From NCBI GenBank assembly GCA_027886925.1, contig JAPCJN010000007.1, positions 1-37,963 of the forward strand: a stretch of DNA of 37,963 nucleotides, written 5' to 3'. Made by a program: the position numbers and the translations under genes. Positions 5,335 through 33,814 of the stretch are shown here, in pieces. Position 1 is the stretch's first letter. Every line of letters starts with the position of its first letter. The stretch is from Nitrososphaerota archaeon. GTDB lineage: Archaea > Thermoproteota > Nitrososphaeria > Nitrososphaerales > UBA183. The notes beneath the pieces were generated by a model. It had not been told where the DNA came from. It worked only from the letters and a program-made list of their open reading frames with translations, and made no database searches.

Positions 5335-6393
5335 CTACTTCCAGGCTCTGCTGAAGACCCTCAGAAAGTTTCCGCCCAGTATCTTCTCTACGTCCGAATC
5401 CGAATAGCCTCGAGCAACTAGGCCTTCGACGACAGGGAGCAGGTTTTCGGGCATTAGTCCGGACGCGTAGCGCTTGTCGTGGGGGACCATGAAGTTGCCA
5501 GAGAGCTTCGTGAGCTCCGGATACCTCTGCGTGAAGCTGGCCGACTCCGAGTCCTTCCTGGCATGGGACTGGTCGAGCCCGATCCCGACATGGTCGACGC
5601 CGGACACTTTCACCACGTGGTCTATGCAGTCCAAATAGTCCTCCATCGACGGAGAAGGAGCGTTCGGGAGCACCCAATAGAGCCCGTATATACCGACGAC
5701 ACCACCTTTCTCAGAGATCGCGACGATCTCCTCCTCGCTCGCGTTCCTTATCACATCGCGCAGTGCCCTGGGGGCCGAGTGGGAGAAGATGCACGGCTGC
5801 TTGGAGACCTCAATGGCGTCTAGGGCGGTCTTCGTGTGCGAGTGAGACAGGTCGATCACAATCCCTGCTCTGTTCAGCTCTTCTACAACCTTGATCCCAT
5901 AGTCGCTCAACCCTGCCGGAGAGTGTGCCTCGAGGCAACCATCTCCGATGAAGTTCCTTCTCATGTAGGTCAGACCCGTTATCCTAATCCCGAGCTTCTG
6001 AATCGCGGGGATCACGCCCAGTTCCTCGATGTAAGCTGATCCCTGCATCCCAAAAATGAAACCGAACTTCCCTGACTGCTTGGCCTTCCGGATGTCGTCC
6101 GCCGTCTCTACCAGCATCGCCTTGTCTCCAAAGCTCTCGATGATCCGGTACCAGTTCGAGACGCTCCTTAGAGCGAACCTAAGTGTGGATTCGTAGATCG
6201 GCTCTGCCATCTCGGGGCTCGTGGGGTGGGCGACAGTGACCACCGCAGCGGTTATCCCTCCGTTCTGGATCTTAGGAAAATGCTCGGGCCACGAATACTG
6301 CCTGGTCGCATCCTGCGCGTTTATCGAGACGAACTTGCGGTAGAGTTCGGCTGCTTCGTCTTTCTCTTTTTTTGTGATTTCAGAGACCTGCAA
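5335..6393 (-). CDS. M19 (renal dipeptidase) family protein with altered metal site
   Basis: A 352-residue TIM-barrel protein. Family marks include G-L-T-Y-M-R-R-N-F-I-G-D-G, the D-L-S-H strand and F-S-H-S (the two histidines that follow the barrel), H-V-G-I-G-L-D and a C-terminal I-L-G-G-N-F-L-R-V-F. In classical members an N-terminal His-x-Asp and a bridging Glu complete the zinc pair; here the first position appears as A26-Q27-D28 and the Glu region as G-M-Q-G (Q117), so the first His and the bridging Glu look replaced. It is paralogous to the gene at 11424-12530, which shows the same replacements. The start is TTG at 6393, just downstream of an A/T-rich promoter shared with the DegT gene. 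Activity is uncertain. Confidence 0.82.
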   Translation of the reverse strand: MQVSEITKKEKDEAAELYRKFVSINAQDATRQYSWPEHFPKIQNGGITAAVVTVAHPTSPEMAEPIYESTLRFALRSVSNWYRIIESFGDKAMLVETADDIRKAKQSGKFGFIFGMQGSAYIEELGVIPAIQKLGIRITGLTYMRRNFIGDGCLEAHSPAGLSDYGIKVVEELNRAGIVIDLSHSHTKTALDAIEVSKQPCIFSHSAPRALRDVIRNASEEEIVAISEKGGVVGIYGLYWVLPNAPSPSMEDYLDCIDHVVKVSGVDHVGIGLDQSHARKDSESASFTQRYPELTKLSGNFMVPHDKRYASGLMPENLLPVVEGLVARGYSDSDVEKILGGNFLRVFSRAWK

Positions 6394-9680: not shown

Positions 9681-9690
9681 GCTTATTAAC
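9681..9690 (+). promoter_or_regulatory. TATA element for the DUF885 gene
   Basis: GCTTATTAAC is centred about 34 bp upstream of the ATG at 9720. The same CTTATTAAC form recurs at other promoters in the window. Confidence 0.55.
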
Positions 9691-9719: not shown

Positions 9720-11381
9720 ATGCCGCGCACCTTCCGTGCGATTGAGGAAGACTTCATAGAACTCTATGGCACAATCCAGTGTCACGGAATTGCGGTAGGC
9801 GGGTCGGCGACAAGGGTAGGGTTCCACAAATATGACGATCGCATCTTCGTTCCCTCCGATAGGAACCTGGCCCACGTCTGGAAGGAGATAACCAGGCTGA
9901 CCAAAGATTTGAAGACGCTCAACTACACTAAGATGAGTTTTCGCGATGGTCTCCGAGCGCGGGAGATGGTGAAGCGCCTGGCATCGATAAAGAAAGACAT
10001 GGAGTGGAATATCCAGAGTCCTGTCTACTATCTCCGCGCCATCGGCGAAGGGATCCTCACTCTACAAGGTTGCGACCACCTACCGAAACAGAGACGGGCC
10101 GTGAACATGGCGAAGCGGTTCAAGTACACCCACGCCCTGTTCGAGAGTTCCAAGAAGAGAGTACGGCGGACCTCGCAGCTGCACGTGCAGGTAGCCACTC
10201 AGCTCGGAAATGCGCTCATTGGATTCTTCACGACAGAGATTCCAAGATTTGTCGAAGACCAAAAGCCCCAGATCCGCAAGACCGTGGTAAGCGAAGCTCG
10301 GGCGGCTGCGGAGGAGGTGCGCCAGTACCTGCGATTCATCGACTCGATAAAGAAAGAGCTTCCGGAGAGGCAGCCACTGGGCGACGAGGAGTATACGGAA
10401 ATACTTCAGGTGAAGTTCGGCTTCGACACCGACGCCACAGCAATGAGGGAGTTCGGTGAGAGGGAGTTCGAGATCTGGAGCGCCAAGCTCGACGGCCTTG
10501 CACGGAAACTCGTCCCAGGAGCCAAGTCATGGGTGGAGGTCAAGCAGAAGTTGATGGACGACCACCCTGTGACCGACAGGCAGGTGATAACAGAGTACAG
10601 GGCTGCGTTGGCCCAGAATCGGAAGTTCCTAAGGAAGAACAACATCGTGACTCTCCCAGAGGGTGAGACTTGCAAGCTGATAGAAACGCCCACGTGGGAG
10701 AGAGTGTTCAAGGGTTTTGCCTCTTGTTGGAACGATGGAATAGTCGAGGGGATGCGCTCCTCGACCTTGTGGATGACCCCGAGCTTTCCTGGCAAGGACC
10801 CGGAAGAGCATCACCGGGAGCACTACCGTGCTTATCAGCGCATACACGTGGGACACGAGGGCTATCCAGGCCACCACGTGAACTACACCAATATCGCGGT
10901 CCATGCCCCGAAAAGCTCCAGGTTCATCACGCGTTTCGGGGGTGGCATCATCGAGGGCTGGGCCGTGTACGCCGAAACGGTCCTCAAGGAGAACGGCGCG
11001 TTCGACGAGGAGCAAGAATTCGCGTGGGCTCTGAACATCCTCTGGAGATGCGTCCGGGTCATCAACGACGTGGGCCTGCACACCGGTTCGATGTCATTCG
11101 ATGACGCGGTAAAGTTGCTGGTCGACAAGCTCAAGATGAACCCCACAGCTGCTGAGAGCGAAGTGAACAGGCAATTGGTCGAACCCGGGAACCTCCCGAA
11201 GTACCTCTACGGCAGGAACACGATAATAGAAATCCGAGAAGAAGCGCGTGAGAAGCTCGGATCAAAGTTTGACCAAAAGTGGTTCCACGACCTGTTGACC
11301 CAGGCAGGCGAGATATCTCTTCCTGGACTCCGAGAGTTGACGATGCACGAAGCCGATGTCCTCTTGGAAAAGCGCGCCTAG
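9720..11381 (+). CDS. DUF885-family putative metallopeptidase
   Basis: A 553-residue protein with the DUF885 signature H-V-G-H-E-G-Y-P-G-H-H (H379, E380, H385/H386), the zinc-binding and catalytic motif of this family within the gluzincin-like clan, followed by G-G-G-I-I-E-G-W-A-V-Y-A-E, which supplies the further Glu. The N-terminal third is helical and less conserved. There is no signal peptide, so it should act in the cytoplasm, where it could trim short peptides delivered by the Dpp importer encoded nearby. It sits 42 bp upstream of the second M19-like gene, with which it could be co-transcribed. Substrates of the family are poorly known. Confidence 0.87.
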   Translation: MPRTFRAIEEDFIELYGTIQCHGIAVGGSATRVGFHKYDDRIFVPSDRNLAHVWKEITRLTKDLKTLNYTKMSFRDGLRAREMVKRLASIKKDMEWNIQSPVYYLRAIGEGILTLQGCDHLPKQRRAVNMAKRFKYTHALFESSKKRVRRTSQLHVQVATQLGNALIGFFTTEIPRFVEDQKPQIRKTVVSEARAAAEEVRQYLRFIDSIKKELPERQPLGDEEYTEILQVKFGFDTDATAMREFGEREFEIWSAKLDGLARKLVPGAKSWVEVKQKLMDDHPVTDRQVITEYRAALAQNRKFLRKNNIVTLPEGETCKLIETPTWERVFKGFASCWNDGIVEGMRSSTLWMTPSFPGKDPEEHHREHYRAYQRIHVGHEGYPGHHVNYTNIAVHAPKSSRFITRFGGGIIEGWAVYAETVLKENGAFDEEQEFAWALNILWRCVRVINDVGLHTGSMSFDDAVKLLVDKLKMNPTAAESEVNRQLVEPGNLPKYLYGRNTIIEIREEAREKLGSKFDQKWFHDLLTQAGEISLPGLRELTMHEADVLLEKRA

Positions 11382-30276: not shown

Positions 30277-30687
30277 CTATTGCTCATCCTTGATTTCTTT
30301 CCACTTGACATTCAGGAATTTGTCCGCCTTGTTGAGAAACAACTCTATCTGGAATTTGTCGGACTCGTGAAGCATGTTCCAGACCTTCCTTGTGATCTCC
30401 CTCGTCTTGCTTTTGAATTTGGGATCCGGGCGAAGCAGAACATCGACCACTGACTCGTTGTCACAAAGGAGGCGAAACTTTCCGTCCTTCTTTCCCAGCC
30501 TCCTCATGGCAAAGTCTATTGCGTAGAGCTCGGCGGCGTCGGTTTCACTAGCGTCCCTCTCATGTATTTCCTCAAACTCGGACTCTTCTCCATCGACCAC
30601 GTAGGCAACGAAAGTGCGCTTGTCTTTCTCTTTGCTATCCCGGTTGATAATCTTGGCGTCGACGTGTACGTCTACCAGCAAGTCCAT
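30277..30687 (-). CDS. RNase H-like protein
   Basis: A 136-residue protein with the RNase H fold order: strand one with D10 (D-V-H-V-D-A-K), strand three T-F-V-A-Y-V-V, helix A with E53 (T-D-A-A-E-L-Y-A-I), strand four with D76 (L-L-C-D-N-E-S-V) and a C-terminal N-K-A-D-K-F with D122. All four acidic positions of a two-metal RNase HI active site therefore seem present. It might cleave RNA in RNA-DNA hybrids. It lacks the basic protrusion of bacterial RNase HI. The ATG at 30687 is 25 bp from a TATA-like element. It is convergent with the molybdenum hydroxylase operon and otherwise isolated. Confidence 0.72.
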   Translation of the reverse strand: MDLLVDVHVDAKIINRDSKEKDKRTFVAYVVDGEESEFEEIHERDASETDAAELYAIDFAMRRLGKKDGKFRLLCDNESVVDVLLRPDPKFKSKTREITRKVWNMLHESDKFQIELFLNKADKFLNVKWKEIKDEQ

Positions 30688-30708
30688 CACCGGTGTGGCC
30701 TCAGAGTA

Positions 30709-30800: not shown

Positions 30801-31520
30801 TCACTTGCTCGCGTCGCCGAATATCCTGAGGGCGCTCCTCCCCTGCTCCGTGAGGGTGACCTCGCTCCGCCTTCCCCTCGCCCTGACCTCCACGAACCCC
30901 CACTCCTTCTCCAGCGGCTCGATTATCGCGCGCAGCCTGCTGTGGGGCGCGCTCTTGCTCGCGTCGGCCCCATACGAGGGTATGAGCGGACGGTCGCCAG
31001 ACTGCAGGGTGCCGATCAGCTCCTTCTTCGACAGGGTTCCGCCGCGCTTGCTTATCACCGAGATCACGTGCAGGAGCTCCTTGCTCGGCTGGCTGATCTT
31101 GTAGACCGGCAGGTCGTCCGTGCTCTTGAACTTCTTCGACGCATAGTCTATCTCGGCGTAGTAGGGGTGGCCGCCCCACAGCATGCACGAGAGCATCCCG
31201 GCGATCGCGATTATCTTGCTGCCCGTGGAGACGTTGGCGTATACGTGACTCCTAGATTCGCCGAGGTAGATCTCCCTGCATGTCTCGAGGCATGCGAAAA
31301 GGTTCCAGATGTCGGTCCGGACGTCCAGCACCTCGCACGAGGCGAGGTCCCTCCTGAGGGTTGCGTGGATGGCGTGGACGTTCGCAGCCGCCTCTTTGCT
31401 GTCGGTGAGATGGCTCACCAGATATGCCTTGTCCGCCCGGTAGTTGATCAACGGGGAGGTCACACGCTCGGGAGGTTCGTGCCCGACCGGAGCGATGTGC
31501 ACGCGCAAGTTATCTGCCAT
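30801..31520 (-). CDS. CARF-domain winged-helix regulator (HFX_2341/DUF6293-type)
   Basis: A 239-residue protein. The N-terminal two-thirds look like a CARF-type Rossmann domain: it begins R-V-H-I-A-P-V-G-H-E with R-A-D-K-A-Y-L-V-S near residue 28-36, and has the ligand-loop motif V-Y-A-N-V-S-T-G-S-K at 93-102, matching the N-x-T/S-x-G-x-K loop of CARF and Csa3-like proteins. The C-terminal part (about 145-239: L-L-H-V-I-S-V-I-S, K-K-E-L-I, R-S-E-V-T-L-T-E-Q-G) is a winged helix. The frame is open for a further 600 bp upstream, but that part is antisense to the divergent gene; the ATG at 31520 fits a TATA element 27 bp away. It probably binds a small nucleotide and controls itself and the divergent zinc-ribbon gene. 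Confidence 0.8.
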   Translation of the reverse strand: MADNLRVHIAPVGHEPPERVTSPLINYRADKAYLVSHLTDSKEAAANVHAIHATLRRDLASCEVLDVRTDIWNLFACLETCREIYLGESRSHVYANVSTGSKIIAIAGMLSCMLWGGHPYYAEIDYASKKFKSTDDLPVYKISQPSKELLHVISVISKRGGTLSKKELIGTLQSGDRPLIPSYGADASKSAPHSRLRAIIEPLEKEWGFVEVRARGRRSEVTLTEQGRSALRIFGDASK

Positions 31521-31533
31521 GCGCTGCGGATCT

Positions 31534-31570
31534 GTTATTAACGTTATAAGGGTTGATATCGTTATTAACG
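31534..31570. repeat. Direct repeat GTTATTAACG, two copies 27 bp apart
   Basis: Identical 10-mers at 31534-31543 and 31561-31570; each contains the near-palindrome GTTA-T-TAAC, and the first is followed by TTAT, the second by ATAT. They lie between the CARF regulator and the zinc-ribbon gene, and the first overlaps the regulator's TATA element. They may be operator sites; however, the same TTATTAAC core also acts as a TATA element elsewhere in the window, so tandem core promoters are an alternative. Confidence 0.6.
31542..31551 (-). promoter_or_regulatory. TATA element for the CARF regulator
   Basis: Minus strand CCTTATAACG, centred 27 bp before the ATG at 31520. Overlaps the left copy of the direct repeat, which would allow autorepression. 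Confidence 0.5.
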
Positions 31571-31587
31571 ATATTCTCGTCAACAAC

Positions 31588-31596
31588 AATAAATAT
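31588..31596 (+). promoter_or_regulatory. TATA element for the zinc-ribbon gene
   Basis: AATAAATAT is centred about 34 bp before the ATG at 31626 and makes the upstream TTG at 31614 an unlikely start. Confidence 0.5.
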
Positions 31597-31625
31597 CTCC
31601 CGAATGCGTTCCTTTGAACATAGGC

Positions 31626-32327
31626 ATGCCACAAGACACTGACTTTCCAAGGACGCAGCCCGAAGTCGAGCGCTGGGCAAGGGGCCCAAACCGGGACAGG
31701 CTCGCACTGGGATACATGGTGTGCTTCATGGTCAGCGCGCTCGAAAGGAGCAGGTCGGGCGCCCCGAGCGACTACCGGTGGATAGCGAACACCGCCAAGG
31801 CTATCGTGAGCGGGATGCCCAGCGTCGAGGCTCAGCTGGAGTTCGAGGTCTCCGAGACGACCCACACGTTCGAGTCCGCCCCTCTGAAGCAGATACTCGG
31901 CGAGCTCCTGTCCTCCCGCCTTCTGACTCTGGGATGCGAGCACTGCGGCGAGCCTTTCTCGACGCCTACAAGGGAGAAAGCATCGCCTTGGGAATCTGGA
32001 GGCACGCGCAAGTGCAGGAGGTGCGGGAAGCCCTTCGACCACCGCTTTGCGGTCTTCAGGATGCCGGACGACGGGCTCGAATGGATGACGGAGTGGGCGG
32101 CGCCACTGCTGGAAGACCACGACCTTGCTATCATGACGAAGACCATGGTGCTAGGGACGCAGTTGCTCCACCGGGATGGGAGGAGCCAGTTCGATTTCGC
32201 GTCGGATACGGCAGTGAAGATATCGGAGCTAAAGGAGCTGCCCCTAGCCTCTAATCGCCCTCCGTCGGCCCTTCTTACCGGAAATAACGCCCACCCATTG
32301 GACCAAGTCTACAAGATTGTGGTCTGA
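31626..32327 (+). CDS. Zinc-ribbon protein of unknown function, divergent partner of the CARF regulator
   Basis: A 233-residue protein I do not recognise. The only clear motif is a zinc ribbon made by C104-x2-C107 and C130-x2-C133 (C-E-H-C-G-E-P-F, then C-R-R-C-G-K-P-F). Before it is a region with R-L-A-L-G-Y-M-V-C-F-M-V-S-A-L-E that may be an amphipathic helix; after it the sequence is acidic with W-M-T-E-W-A. There is no signal peptide and no long membrane helix. It is transcribed away from the CARF regulator, from a shared intergenic region of about 105 bp with a repeated element, so it is a candidate target of that regulator. The ribbon suggests binding of nucleic acid or protein; no catalytic motif is seen. 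Confidence 0.72.
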   Translation: MPQDTDFPRTQPEVERWARGPNRDRLALGYMVCFMVSALERSRSGAPSDYRWIANTAKAIVSGMPSVEAQLEFEVSETTHTFESAPLKQILGELLSSRLLTLGCEHCGEPFSTPTREKASPWESGGTRKCRRCGKPFDHRFAVFRMPDDGLEWMTEWAAPLLEDHDLAIMTKTMVLGTQLLHRDGRSQFDFASDTAVKISELKELPLASNRPPSALLTGNNAHPLDQVYKIVV

Positions 32328-32410: not shown

Positions 32411-32764
32411 TTACTTTTTCGCAGATTTGGGGACCTTTGGAGGAAGCTTGCCTGCCCAGGTCAAGGACCTGGAGACCCACGCCCTGACAGTTTTGGGGTC
32501 TTCCTTCCATGACCCCGGAATGACGGAGTAACCAGTCATCGGCCTCCCCTTCATCGGCTCAAAATTCGACCCACCCTTGCTCTCGAGCTCTCTGCGGTCG
32601 TCGTCCGACAGGCGAAGGAAAAGATCATTTCCGAAGAGCCCCATGAACATGTTCCCGTTCACAAAAGCCGCGTTGTTGCCGAACATCGGCCTGACCTTCA
32701 CCCTCGGATCGCTCGGCACTACGGAGGCGAAGAACTCCTTTGCGCGTTCATCTGGCTTTGGCAT
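32411..32764 (-). CDS. TfoX N-terminal domain protein
   Basis: A 117-residue protein corresponding to the stand-alone TfoX-N domain: V-R-P-M-F-G-N-N-A-A-F-V-N-G-N-M-F near the start, then L-F-L-R-L-S and a Y-S-V-I-P-G-S-W strand, ending in a lysine-rich tail. In proteobacteria the domain is part of the competence regulator Sxy/TfoX; single-domain copies are common in archaea and soil bacteria and have no firm function. An in-frame TTG at 32770 adds two residues. No clear TATA element is seen upstream, so it may be transcribed with the small frame upstream. Confidence 0.82.
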   Translation of the reverse strand: MPKPDERAKEFFASVVPSDPRVKVRPMFGNNAAFVNGNMFMGLFGNDLFLRLSDDDRRELESKGGSNFEPMKGRPMTGYSVIPGSWKEDPKTVRAWVSRSLTWAGKLPPKVPKSAKK

Positions 32765-32787
32765 GCTCAAGTGGTGGACCTTTGGCT

Positions 32788-32976: not shown

Positions 32977-33762
32977 TCACGAAACGAAGCGCTCTCCAGC
33001 GTGGCAAATCCCCCTTAGAATCTCGAACTCCAGCTGGCGAGAGCCCTTGTCAAACTCCTTTCCGGTCGACTCAATGCTGTTGGTGACATACGCCACTAGA
33101 CCGACCGGAAATCCCCGTGCCTTCGAGAAGGCGAAGAGGGAAGCGGCCTGCATCTCGACGGCCAGCACTCCCGCCTTCGCGTGTTCGGCCATCTGTATCG
33201 CGGTTTCGCGGTAGGGAGCGTCGGTGGTCCAAACGGTTCCGGACAACACCGGCAGCGGCTGGATTCTAAGCTCGGATTCGAGGAGGTTCGACACTTTTGA
33301 TGGCGCGTCTATCGCGGGAGCCGGGGGCAGATAGTGATAGGAAGTCCCCTCGTCTCTGATTGCCCGCGTCGCCACAACAAGGCCCGGAACGGGCATGGAC
33401 GAAGAGACGCGACCGGCAGAGGTCAGGCCGAGTAGCAGGCGTGCGCCAGAGATTGCCATCTGCTCCGCCACCAGAACCGCGTACGGGCCCCCTATTGTCC
33501 GCGGCACTATAGCGCATCTGATCCCGTCGACCGCGAGCGAATACATGGTGGTATGGAAGCACGCCCATCCCTCGAATCGCTGGGCTGCACCCGTCGAAAC
33601 GAGCCAATCCGTCAGGTCACCGTCGAACTCAAGGATGCATATCTCAGGAATCGGCTCAGGTTCGAGATTTCTTTCAGCACGCACTGCATTCATCAGGTCC
33701 TCGGGAGAGAACGCTGTGGGTGCATCTAGAGGATGGTCAAGCAGAGGTATGGGCTCGGTCAT
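32977..33762 (-). CDS. Nucleoside phosphorylase (uridine phosphorylase/PNP family)
   Basis: A protein of about 261 residues of the PNP_UDP_1 fold. The family's late motif A-V-E-M-Q-A-A-S-L-F-A-F is present, with Glu-Met contacting the ribose, as are the D-E-G-T-S-Y-H-Y and W-T-T-D-A-P-Y-R-E-T segments and an early I-G-G-P-Y-A-V-L-V-A-E. It should split a nucleoside with phosphate into ribose-1-phosphate and base in salvage; the base is not determinable here. ATG at 33762 is used; TTG at 33783 would add seven residues and lies nearer to the TATA-like element at 33815-33824. It seems unrelated to its neighbours. Confidence 0.87.
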   Translation of the reverse strand: MTEPIPLLDHPLDAPTAFSPEDLMNAVRAERNLEPEPIPEICILEFDGDLTDWLVSTGAAQRFEGWACFHTTMYSLAVDGIRCAIVPRTIGGPYAVLVAEQMAISGARLLLGLTSAGRVSSSMPVPGLVVATRAIRDEGTSYHYLPPAPAIDAPSKVSNLLESELRIQPLPVLSGTVWTTDAPYRETAIQMAEHAKAGVLAVEMQAASLFAFSKARGFPVGLVAYVTNSIESTGKEFDKGSRQLEFEILRGICHAGERFVS

Positions 33763-33814
33763 CGGCTTGCCTTCGAGAGACAAGGCGCTGTAAGGTTTTT
33801 GTCGCTGGACAAGT

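Follow-up and report, generated by a model that had tools for sequence, protein, structure and literature searches.

A CARF-winged-helix regulator of the HFX_2341 family with a 9-bp-phased promoter array and an exchangeable divergent gene in a Nitrososphaerota archaeon

Background

HFX_2341 (crr) of Haloferax mediterranei is a CARF-winged helix-turn-helix (wHTH)-like protein encoded away from CRISPR loci, for which nucleotide sensing has been proposed (PMC11434293). Here we analyse a similar regulator of the same DUF6293 family, whose N-terminal Pfam model is named after the Haloferax protein, encoded in a stretch of 37,963 nucleotides (the window) from a Nitrososphaerota archaeon (assembly GCA_027886925.1, contig JAPCJN010000007.1, positions 1 to 37,963, forward strand). 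The regulator gene is divergent from a gene for a zinc-ribbon protein, and the region between them carries an array of six 9-bp units that recurs, with drifting sequence, upstream of many regulators of the family. HFX_2341 was studied as a global repressor that touches cas genes, its binding regions being left for chromatin immunoprecipitation sequencing, and no divergent partner is discussed in the accessible text of that report (PMC11434293). The regulator family is known; what is new is the operator grammar, together with a divergent slot whose gene is swapped and often of a defence type.

Two further CARF-wHTH systems bear on the comparison. MM_0565 of Methanosarcina mazei, the product of a leaderless gene, binds its own promoter as a dimer over approximately 60 nt; unlike the regulator in the window, it lies beside a type I-B cas locus, and its authors found no motif (PMC7465815). 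Csa3a and Csa3b of the Sulfolobales (2WTE, 6W11, 6WXQ) likewise join a CARF domain to a MarR-like wHTH domain but are linked to CRISPR type I-A, and the operator of Csa3a has been described as an 18-bp palindrome (CAPPa; PMC8699464). The DNA recognised by CARF-wHTH regulators was left open in the HFX_2341 and MM_0565 studies.

A regulator of the HFX_2341/DUF6293 family

The regulator gene occupies positions 30801-31520 of the minus strand and encodes 239 amino acids, with a CARF domain at approximately residues 5-140 and a winged helix at residues 136-234. The protein passes the gathering scores of both Pfam models in the family order (PF19810, 81.6 bits against a cut-off of 30, at residues 6-123; PF22665, 62 bits against a cut-off of 27, at residues 136-234) and is labelled CARF3 by PADLOC; it is a CARF-winged-helix regulator of the named HFX_2341/DUF6293 family and not an orphan. 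Its start codon is backed by a relative, P0006, that begins at the same residue. The AlphaFold2 model, with a predicted local distance difference test score (pLDDT) of 93.3, consists of a Rossmann-like CARF fold followed by a winged helix, and its best Foldseek match is Csa3 with cyclic tetra-adenylate (cA4). The combination of a CARF-like domain with a winged helix, which the initial annotation had proposed together with structure prediction as a means of confirming it, is thus upheld by the model, its best structural match and both Pfam domains. Csa3 structures are matched by both Foldseek and VIA, although the domains are arranged differently with respect to one another (2wte, 13.4 Å over 200 residues).

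In CARF proteins the ligand is held by the loops that follow strands 1 and 4. When these loops are placed by DSSP on the model, the residues invariant in 36 sequences fall within them: G13 and R19 after strand 1, and N96, S98, T99 and G100 after strand 4. The second loop reads N-V-S-T-G-S-K (residues 96-102); it had been recognised correctly as CARF-like at the outset but was spelled N-S-T-G-S-K, with one residue missing. Assignment to Csa3 itself stays below the cut-offs (NCBIfam TIGR01884, 18.1 of 60.2 bits; Csa3_N, PF22662, 18.4 of 27 bits), and a profile search with the regulator against the PDB gave no match at E ≤ 0.1. A single-sequence match to 7on6 (SAKe6AE) spans 25 residues at E 1.8e-5 with no stretch that passes alone, and was taken as not meaningful. 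In one genome (G092; L031/L104) a copy of the regulator is present in pieces, one of them with a stop.

A 9-bp-phased array at the regulator promoter

The intergenic region had been described as holding two identical copies of a repeated element 27 bp apart. The copies are real: GTTATTAACG occurs exactly at 31534-31543 and 31561-31570, and with one mismatch allowed it has four matches in the window against 0.59 expected, a number reached in none of 100 shuffles; the four include copy 2 read in reverse and a distant match at 9682. They do not constitute a two-copy site, being units 3 and 6 of a proposed operator of six 9-bp units (31534-31587, read on the minus strand as GTTGTTGAC GAGAATATC GTTAATAAC GATATCAAC CCTTATAAC GTTAATAAC, from the unit listing and column counts), in which 27 bp is three times nine. 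An independent repeat search recovered copies at 31534, 31552 and 31561, at spacings of 18 and 9. By inspection, a putative TATA element of the regulator (TTATAA, 31544-31549, minus strand) lies inside the array approximately 26 bp from the ATG, and a leaderless transcript is therefore predicted. Copy 1, which had been thought to overlap this element, adjoins it without overlap. On the other side, a putative TATA element of the zinc-ribbon gene (AATAAATATC, 31588-31597, plus strand, also by inspection) follows directly past the edge of the array. The distant match, CTTATTAACG at 9682, upstream of a DUF885 gene at 9720, was considered as a second target and set aside, being a single unit with no array by eye.

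The phase was then sought in the family. Regulator loci comprised up to 30 per search (8 in one search) plus 50 regions chosen by score and place, a selection from all matches; 22 loci without a callable start were excluded, including L007/L128, L008 and L104 of the close kind. From 127 upstream regions 71 were kept, the other 56 being duplicates or at least 70% identical to a kept region. Group A contains the close relatives; group B the second subfamily from the same class, of the type present as a second copy in Nitrosopumilus and Nitrosotenuis records; group C the regulators from the phylum of Methanoperedens; and group D the most distant ones. The group borders (240 and 60 bits) were chosen after the scores were known, and membership of Nitrososphaeria for groups A and B (bar one Methanoperedens in A) and of the phylum for group C was assigned from the search scope and a few record titles. 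We take the phylum of group C to be Halobacteriota. In each region the best of lags 5-15 was determined over the 70 bp upstream of the regulator start, and the controls were 202 intergenic regions from the same loci, with dinucleotide-preserving shuffles as a further standard. An earlier control of 303 upstream regions of any open reading frame (ORF) was replaced by the intergenic set because it included coding sequence; in it lags 9, 12, 15, 18, 21 and 24 were raised, the pooled lag-9 z was 8.5, and 9 or 18 was the best lag in 40 of 303.

Upstream of the 11 close loci (the window, nine loci of the class Nitrososphaeria and one from Methanoperedens, with class taken from search scope or title), autocorrelation maxima fall at lags 9, 18 and 27 (z 8.9, 7.2 and 4.8). 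Lag 9 is the best lag in 8/10 regions of group A, 14/25 of group B and 17/29 of group C, together 39/64, versus 28/202 intergenic controls (Mann-Whitney, groups A, B and C against controls, 9e-14), and its z reaches at least 2 in 27/64 regulator regions versus 15/202 controls. Across the regulator family the 9-bp trait is frequent, not universal. Codon periodicity is ruled out as the source of the signal: in groups A-C lag 6 never exceeds z 2.0 nor lag 12 z 1.3, both weak values, and in 8/11 close loci an in-frame stop interrupts the upstream frame 3-39 bp before the start (for L003, L004 and the window the distance is 63-183 bp). By eye, the phase stays constant while the unit sequence drifts by group, from GTTAATAAN in group A to ATACTRTAC-like units in group B and GTTAGCAT or ATACTATCG in some of group C. 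The second DUF6293 subfamily (L016-L030, L076-L100 and others) carries the operator AGTATNNNNACTNTANATACT immediately before the start, and both subfamilies co-occur in genomes G003, G004 and G005. In P0007, which is 85% identical to the regulator and has an annotated N-terminal extension, that extension preserves the array frame (LTRISLITISTLIT), and the next residues differ. In the open-licence full texts searched, no CARF regulator is described as having a 9-bp array.

Arrays of this kind have a described counterpart in Streptomyces, where the winged-HTH protein BldC binds a variable number of 9-bp direct repeats cooperatively, head to tail, with one protomer per repeat (PMC5859096). As in BldC-bound promoters, several 9-bp direct repeats, here six, lie in the promoter. 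BldC is an unrelated MerR-like protein of 68 residues that lacks a sensor domain, and the likeness is one of operator and mechanism, not of membership. A distributed site would also fit MM_0565, whose binding depends on each of the three 20-nt parts of a 60-nt stretch of its promoter and for which no motif was found (PMC7465815).

The exchangeable divergent slot

A divergent ORF starts within 500 bp of the regulator in 11/11 close loci, the window included, and the genes in this position differ widely. In four of the 11 the slot holds a ubiquitin-like set (Multi_ubiq, Prok-E2_E and ThiF/E1), detected by Pfam in L005 and by tblastn in L003, L006 and L102, the E1 gene of L102 being cut by the contig end. 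Elsewhere it is occupied by a PIN domain protein (L011, 53.5 bits), a ParE-like toxin match (L004), a DdmD-like helicase 487 bp away (L002 from Methanoperedens, 164 bits), a 324-residue protein of no assigned family followed by NurA (L001), FUN14 (L105) and NitrOD1 (L103). Between the regulator and the helicase in L002, positions 5463-5700 of the minus strand hold a decayed ThiF/E1 piece, 69% identical over 55 residues to a Nitrosotenuis E1; it resembles a scar left behind by a swap and suggests transfer and turnover of the slot.

Among the distant relatives, one (L065) is divergent, at 300 bp, from a CBASS (cyclic oligonucleotide-based antiphage signalling system)-type cyclase (PADLOC 328.8 bits; SMODS 23.6 of 26.5 bits; the gene is cut by the locus end), an association of a CARF regulator with an enzyme that makes a second messenger. 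Another (L132) is divergent from Cas3 (907 bits, 143 bp), two (L087 and L123) are divergent from PIN domains, and others face ordinary genes or probably spurious ORFs. In groups B and C many of the haloarchaeal ORFs called as divergent genes are probably spurious, and we claim no count or enrichment for them. As a separate observation, a similar-looking protein (by eye) is divergent from the regulator in four genomes (L138, L064, L066 and L134); the L138 copy, the one compared with Pfam, has a weak OGG-like match (21.3 of 27 bits).

In the window the slot is filled by a 233-residue zinc-ribbon protein (31626-32327, plus strand) with a CxxC-22-CxxC arrangement (C104, C107, C130 and C133) between low-confidence predicted helices. 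The initial annotation had called it a protein of no known family, and this holds for the libraries searched: there is no Pfam or NCBIfam match above cut-off (best below threshold, Zn_ribbon_8 at 13.5 of 34.4 bits and ECs_2282 at 11.4 of 37, respectively) and no PADLOC match at E 0.001, while an HNH match among the PHROG profiles (E 0.0056) is confined to the zinc knuckle. Among 5.8 billion proteins, searched by shared short words and clustered at 90%, three relatives were found, one at 98% and two at 77% identity (for the last of them over 87% of the length); all four cysteines are kept in each, and a profile search of the same set returned the same three at E ≤ 1. Two of them, P0003 and P0004, start at the corresponding residue and back the start codon. 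Sequence comparison with the PDB gave chance-like matches only, to a collagen-binding protein, TRF1 and C2H2 fingers, with best E values of 0.095 and 0.083, and the AlphaFold2 model, built on a four-row alignment, is unusable (pLDDT 37.5). Because defence and toxin genes are frequent occupants of this exchangeable slot, we regard the zinc-ribbon gene as a candidate conflict gene; an effector role for its product would be a guess.

Proposed mechanism and alternative explanations

We consider it probable that the regulator is a CARF sensor that assembles cooperatively on its own array, represses its own promoter and governs the divergent gene, which is exchangeable and often of a defence type. 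The minus-strand gene would encode a ligand-sensing autoregulator, several copies of which would sit side by side on the 9-bp array of its own promoter. By inspection, the array spans the putative TATA element of the regulator and stops just upstream of the putative B recognition element and TATA element of the zinc-ribbon gene; binding should therefore silence the regulator and control the divergent gene, either by repression or by activation from upstream. A small signal bound in the CARF pocket, with a cyclic oligonucleotide or a related nucleotide as the likeliest candidate, may then alter the wHTH arrangement and change the output. Cooperative binding of long DNA has been reported for Csa3a (PMC8699464). 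The binding of DNA by Csa3a is also independent of cA4 (PMC8699464, PMC8844856), and in one of these studies non-specific, so that an effect of a CARF signal on the array is proposed here conditionally.

Besides this cA4 independence, several observations weigh against the proposal. In H. mediterranei, HFX_2341 acts on many metabolic genes, its deletion causes no significant change in cas expression by RNA sequencing, and quantitative PCR after the deletion shows a significant change for cas1 and cas3 only; its authors regard the many-gene effect as perhaps indirect (PMC11434293). The window alone gives a modest and at most suggestive signal (lag-9 z 2.3, lag-18 z 3.6). The most distant relatives (group D) show no array, lag 9 being best in 1/7, and 25/64 members of groups A-C have another best lag. 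The Cas3-linked locus L132 is without an array (z9 0.4; best block 12 of 27). For 17 group-B loci with starts at or near the match edge the lag-9 signal was unclear (z 1.9), and it rose to 8.7 in 25 regions once the starts had been re-placed. Other lags are raised too (lag 15 in group A, z 3.2-3.5; lag 21 in group B, z 3.2). With regard to the slot, the ParE-like match of L004 lies just under its cut-off (26.4 of 28 bits), FUN14, NitrOD1 and the 324-residue protein are not defence genes by annotation, and the zinc-ribbon protein belongs to no recognised family.

Alternatively, the protein may be a general metabolic regulator that lies beside other genes by chance, its array being purely autoregulatory and the zinc-ribbon gene unrelated, an explanation that we regard as unlikely. 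It would agree with the change of many transport and metabolic genes on deletion of HFX_2341 (PMC11434293). In 20 group-B genomes, moreover, the operator pattern with one mismatch allowed has 21 matches in 17 genomes, of which 17 lie, as the construction of the pattern dictates, at the promoter of the regulator itself and four elsewhere, versus 15 matches of the reversed control; this is no excess and does not point to a broad regulon of complete arrays in group B, which also counts against the proposed mechanism. On the other hand, a divergent neighbour begins within 500 bp in every one of the 11 close loci, defence or toxin types recur among these neighbours, and the array ends, by eye, at the putative TATA element of the zinc-ribbon gene, which argues against a gene unrelated to it.

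A second possibility is that a regulator dimer occupies two classical sites, the palindromic GTTAWTAAC copies at 31534 and 31561, with the 9-bp phase incidental. The element GTTANTAAC is indeed palindromic and occurs in the window at these two copies only, a 19-bp palindrome (ATATCGTTATTAACGATAT, 31556-31574, about one central base) surrounds unit 3 as an alternative dimer site, and an 18-bp palindrome has been linked to Csa3a (PMC8699464). Among the loci listed, however, GTTANTAAC is found within 150 bp upstream in the window alone, whereas the 9-bp phase recurs, and the joint rise of lags 9, 18 and 27 in the close group speaks against two sites, which makes this arrangement distinctly unlikely in our judgement.

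The initial annotation had suggested a conserved two-gene unit, in which the nucleotide-sensing regulator would have the zinc-ribbon protein as its dedicated effector. The two genes are divergent and share the intergenic array, which favours such a unit, but close regulators have quite different divergent genes, and as far as seen the pairing is therefore not a conserved module. The zinc-ribbon gene was not found in the genome-contig or viral-contig collections searched; among 400 genomes belonging to the same class as the nearest reference, one chance-like match turned up, of 14.5 bits to the zinc knuckle, and a separate search of eight genomes gave likewise chance-like matches in two (E 0.1-0.2). 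None of the contigs that carry its three relatives (2,875, 10,726 and 22,614 bases) is the longest contig for any of the 120 regulator matches listed out of 299, which suggests, though weakly, that the two genes do not stay together. We consider a dedicated unit of this kind quite improbable. That the repeats are functionless chance structure of an AT-rich promoter is very improbable indeed: ordinary intergenic sequence has some lag-9 signal (mean z9 0.28 in the controls), but three groups exceed both the shuffles and the real intergenic controls, and P0007 retains the array frame although its next residues differ.

If the proposed mechanism extends to the family, HFX_2341/CARF3 regulators might share an operator grammar of 9-bp direct repeats, filled by a cooperative filament of CARF dimers, and regulator plus array might form a portable switch to which different immune operons can be coupled (ubiquitin-like conjugation, CBASS-type cyclase, Cas3, toxins), as an archaeal counterpart of bacterial CapW/BrxR. 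We offer this broader view tentatively, as possible though somewhat unlikely. Like these regulators, BrxR and CapW form one family of ligand-sensor and HTH proteins found beside many defence systems; unlike them, they use a WYL sensor and inverted repeats in bacteria, in place of a CARF sensor and 9-bp direct repeats in archaea (PMC9122601, PMC9122588). Were the broader view true, the zinc-ribbon protein would be an undescribed defence effector. The swapped slot, with its CBASS-type cyclase and ubiquitin-like operon, suggests that in archaea the reach of CARF sensing may extend to the control of immune genes outside CRISPR, and it offers a route to new defence genes, perhaps including the zinc-ribbon protein. 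A 9-bp array that can be read from sequence makes recognition directly testable in Haloferax or Methanosarcina and provides a route to the genes controlled.

Genomic context

As the initial annotation had noted, the window gives no sign of CRISPR: no direct repeat family of 21 nt or more within 500 bp was found, and no Cas family scored above cut-off among the 27 ORFs scanned with Pfam, a subset of those present. The window likewise holds no RNA family at gathering score and no tRNA. Downstream of the regulator on the same strand lies an ORF of 137 residues (30277-30690, minus), which matches nothing in Pfam or PHROG and reaches no NCBIfam cut-off; by eye its sequence resembles an RNase H-type fold. 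Beyond the zinc-ribbon gene are genes for a TfoX_N protein (32411-32770, minus; 60.4 bits) and a protein of the nucleoside phosphorylase family (32977-33783, minus; PF01048, 85.3 bits).
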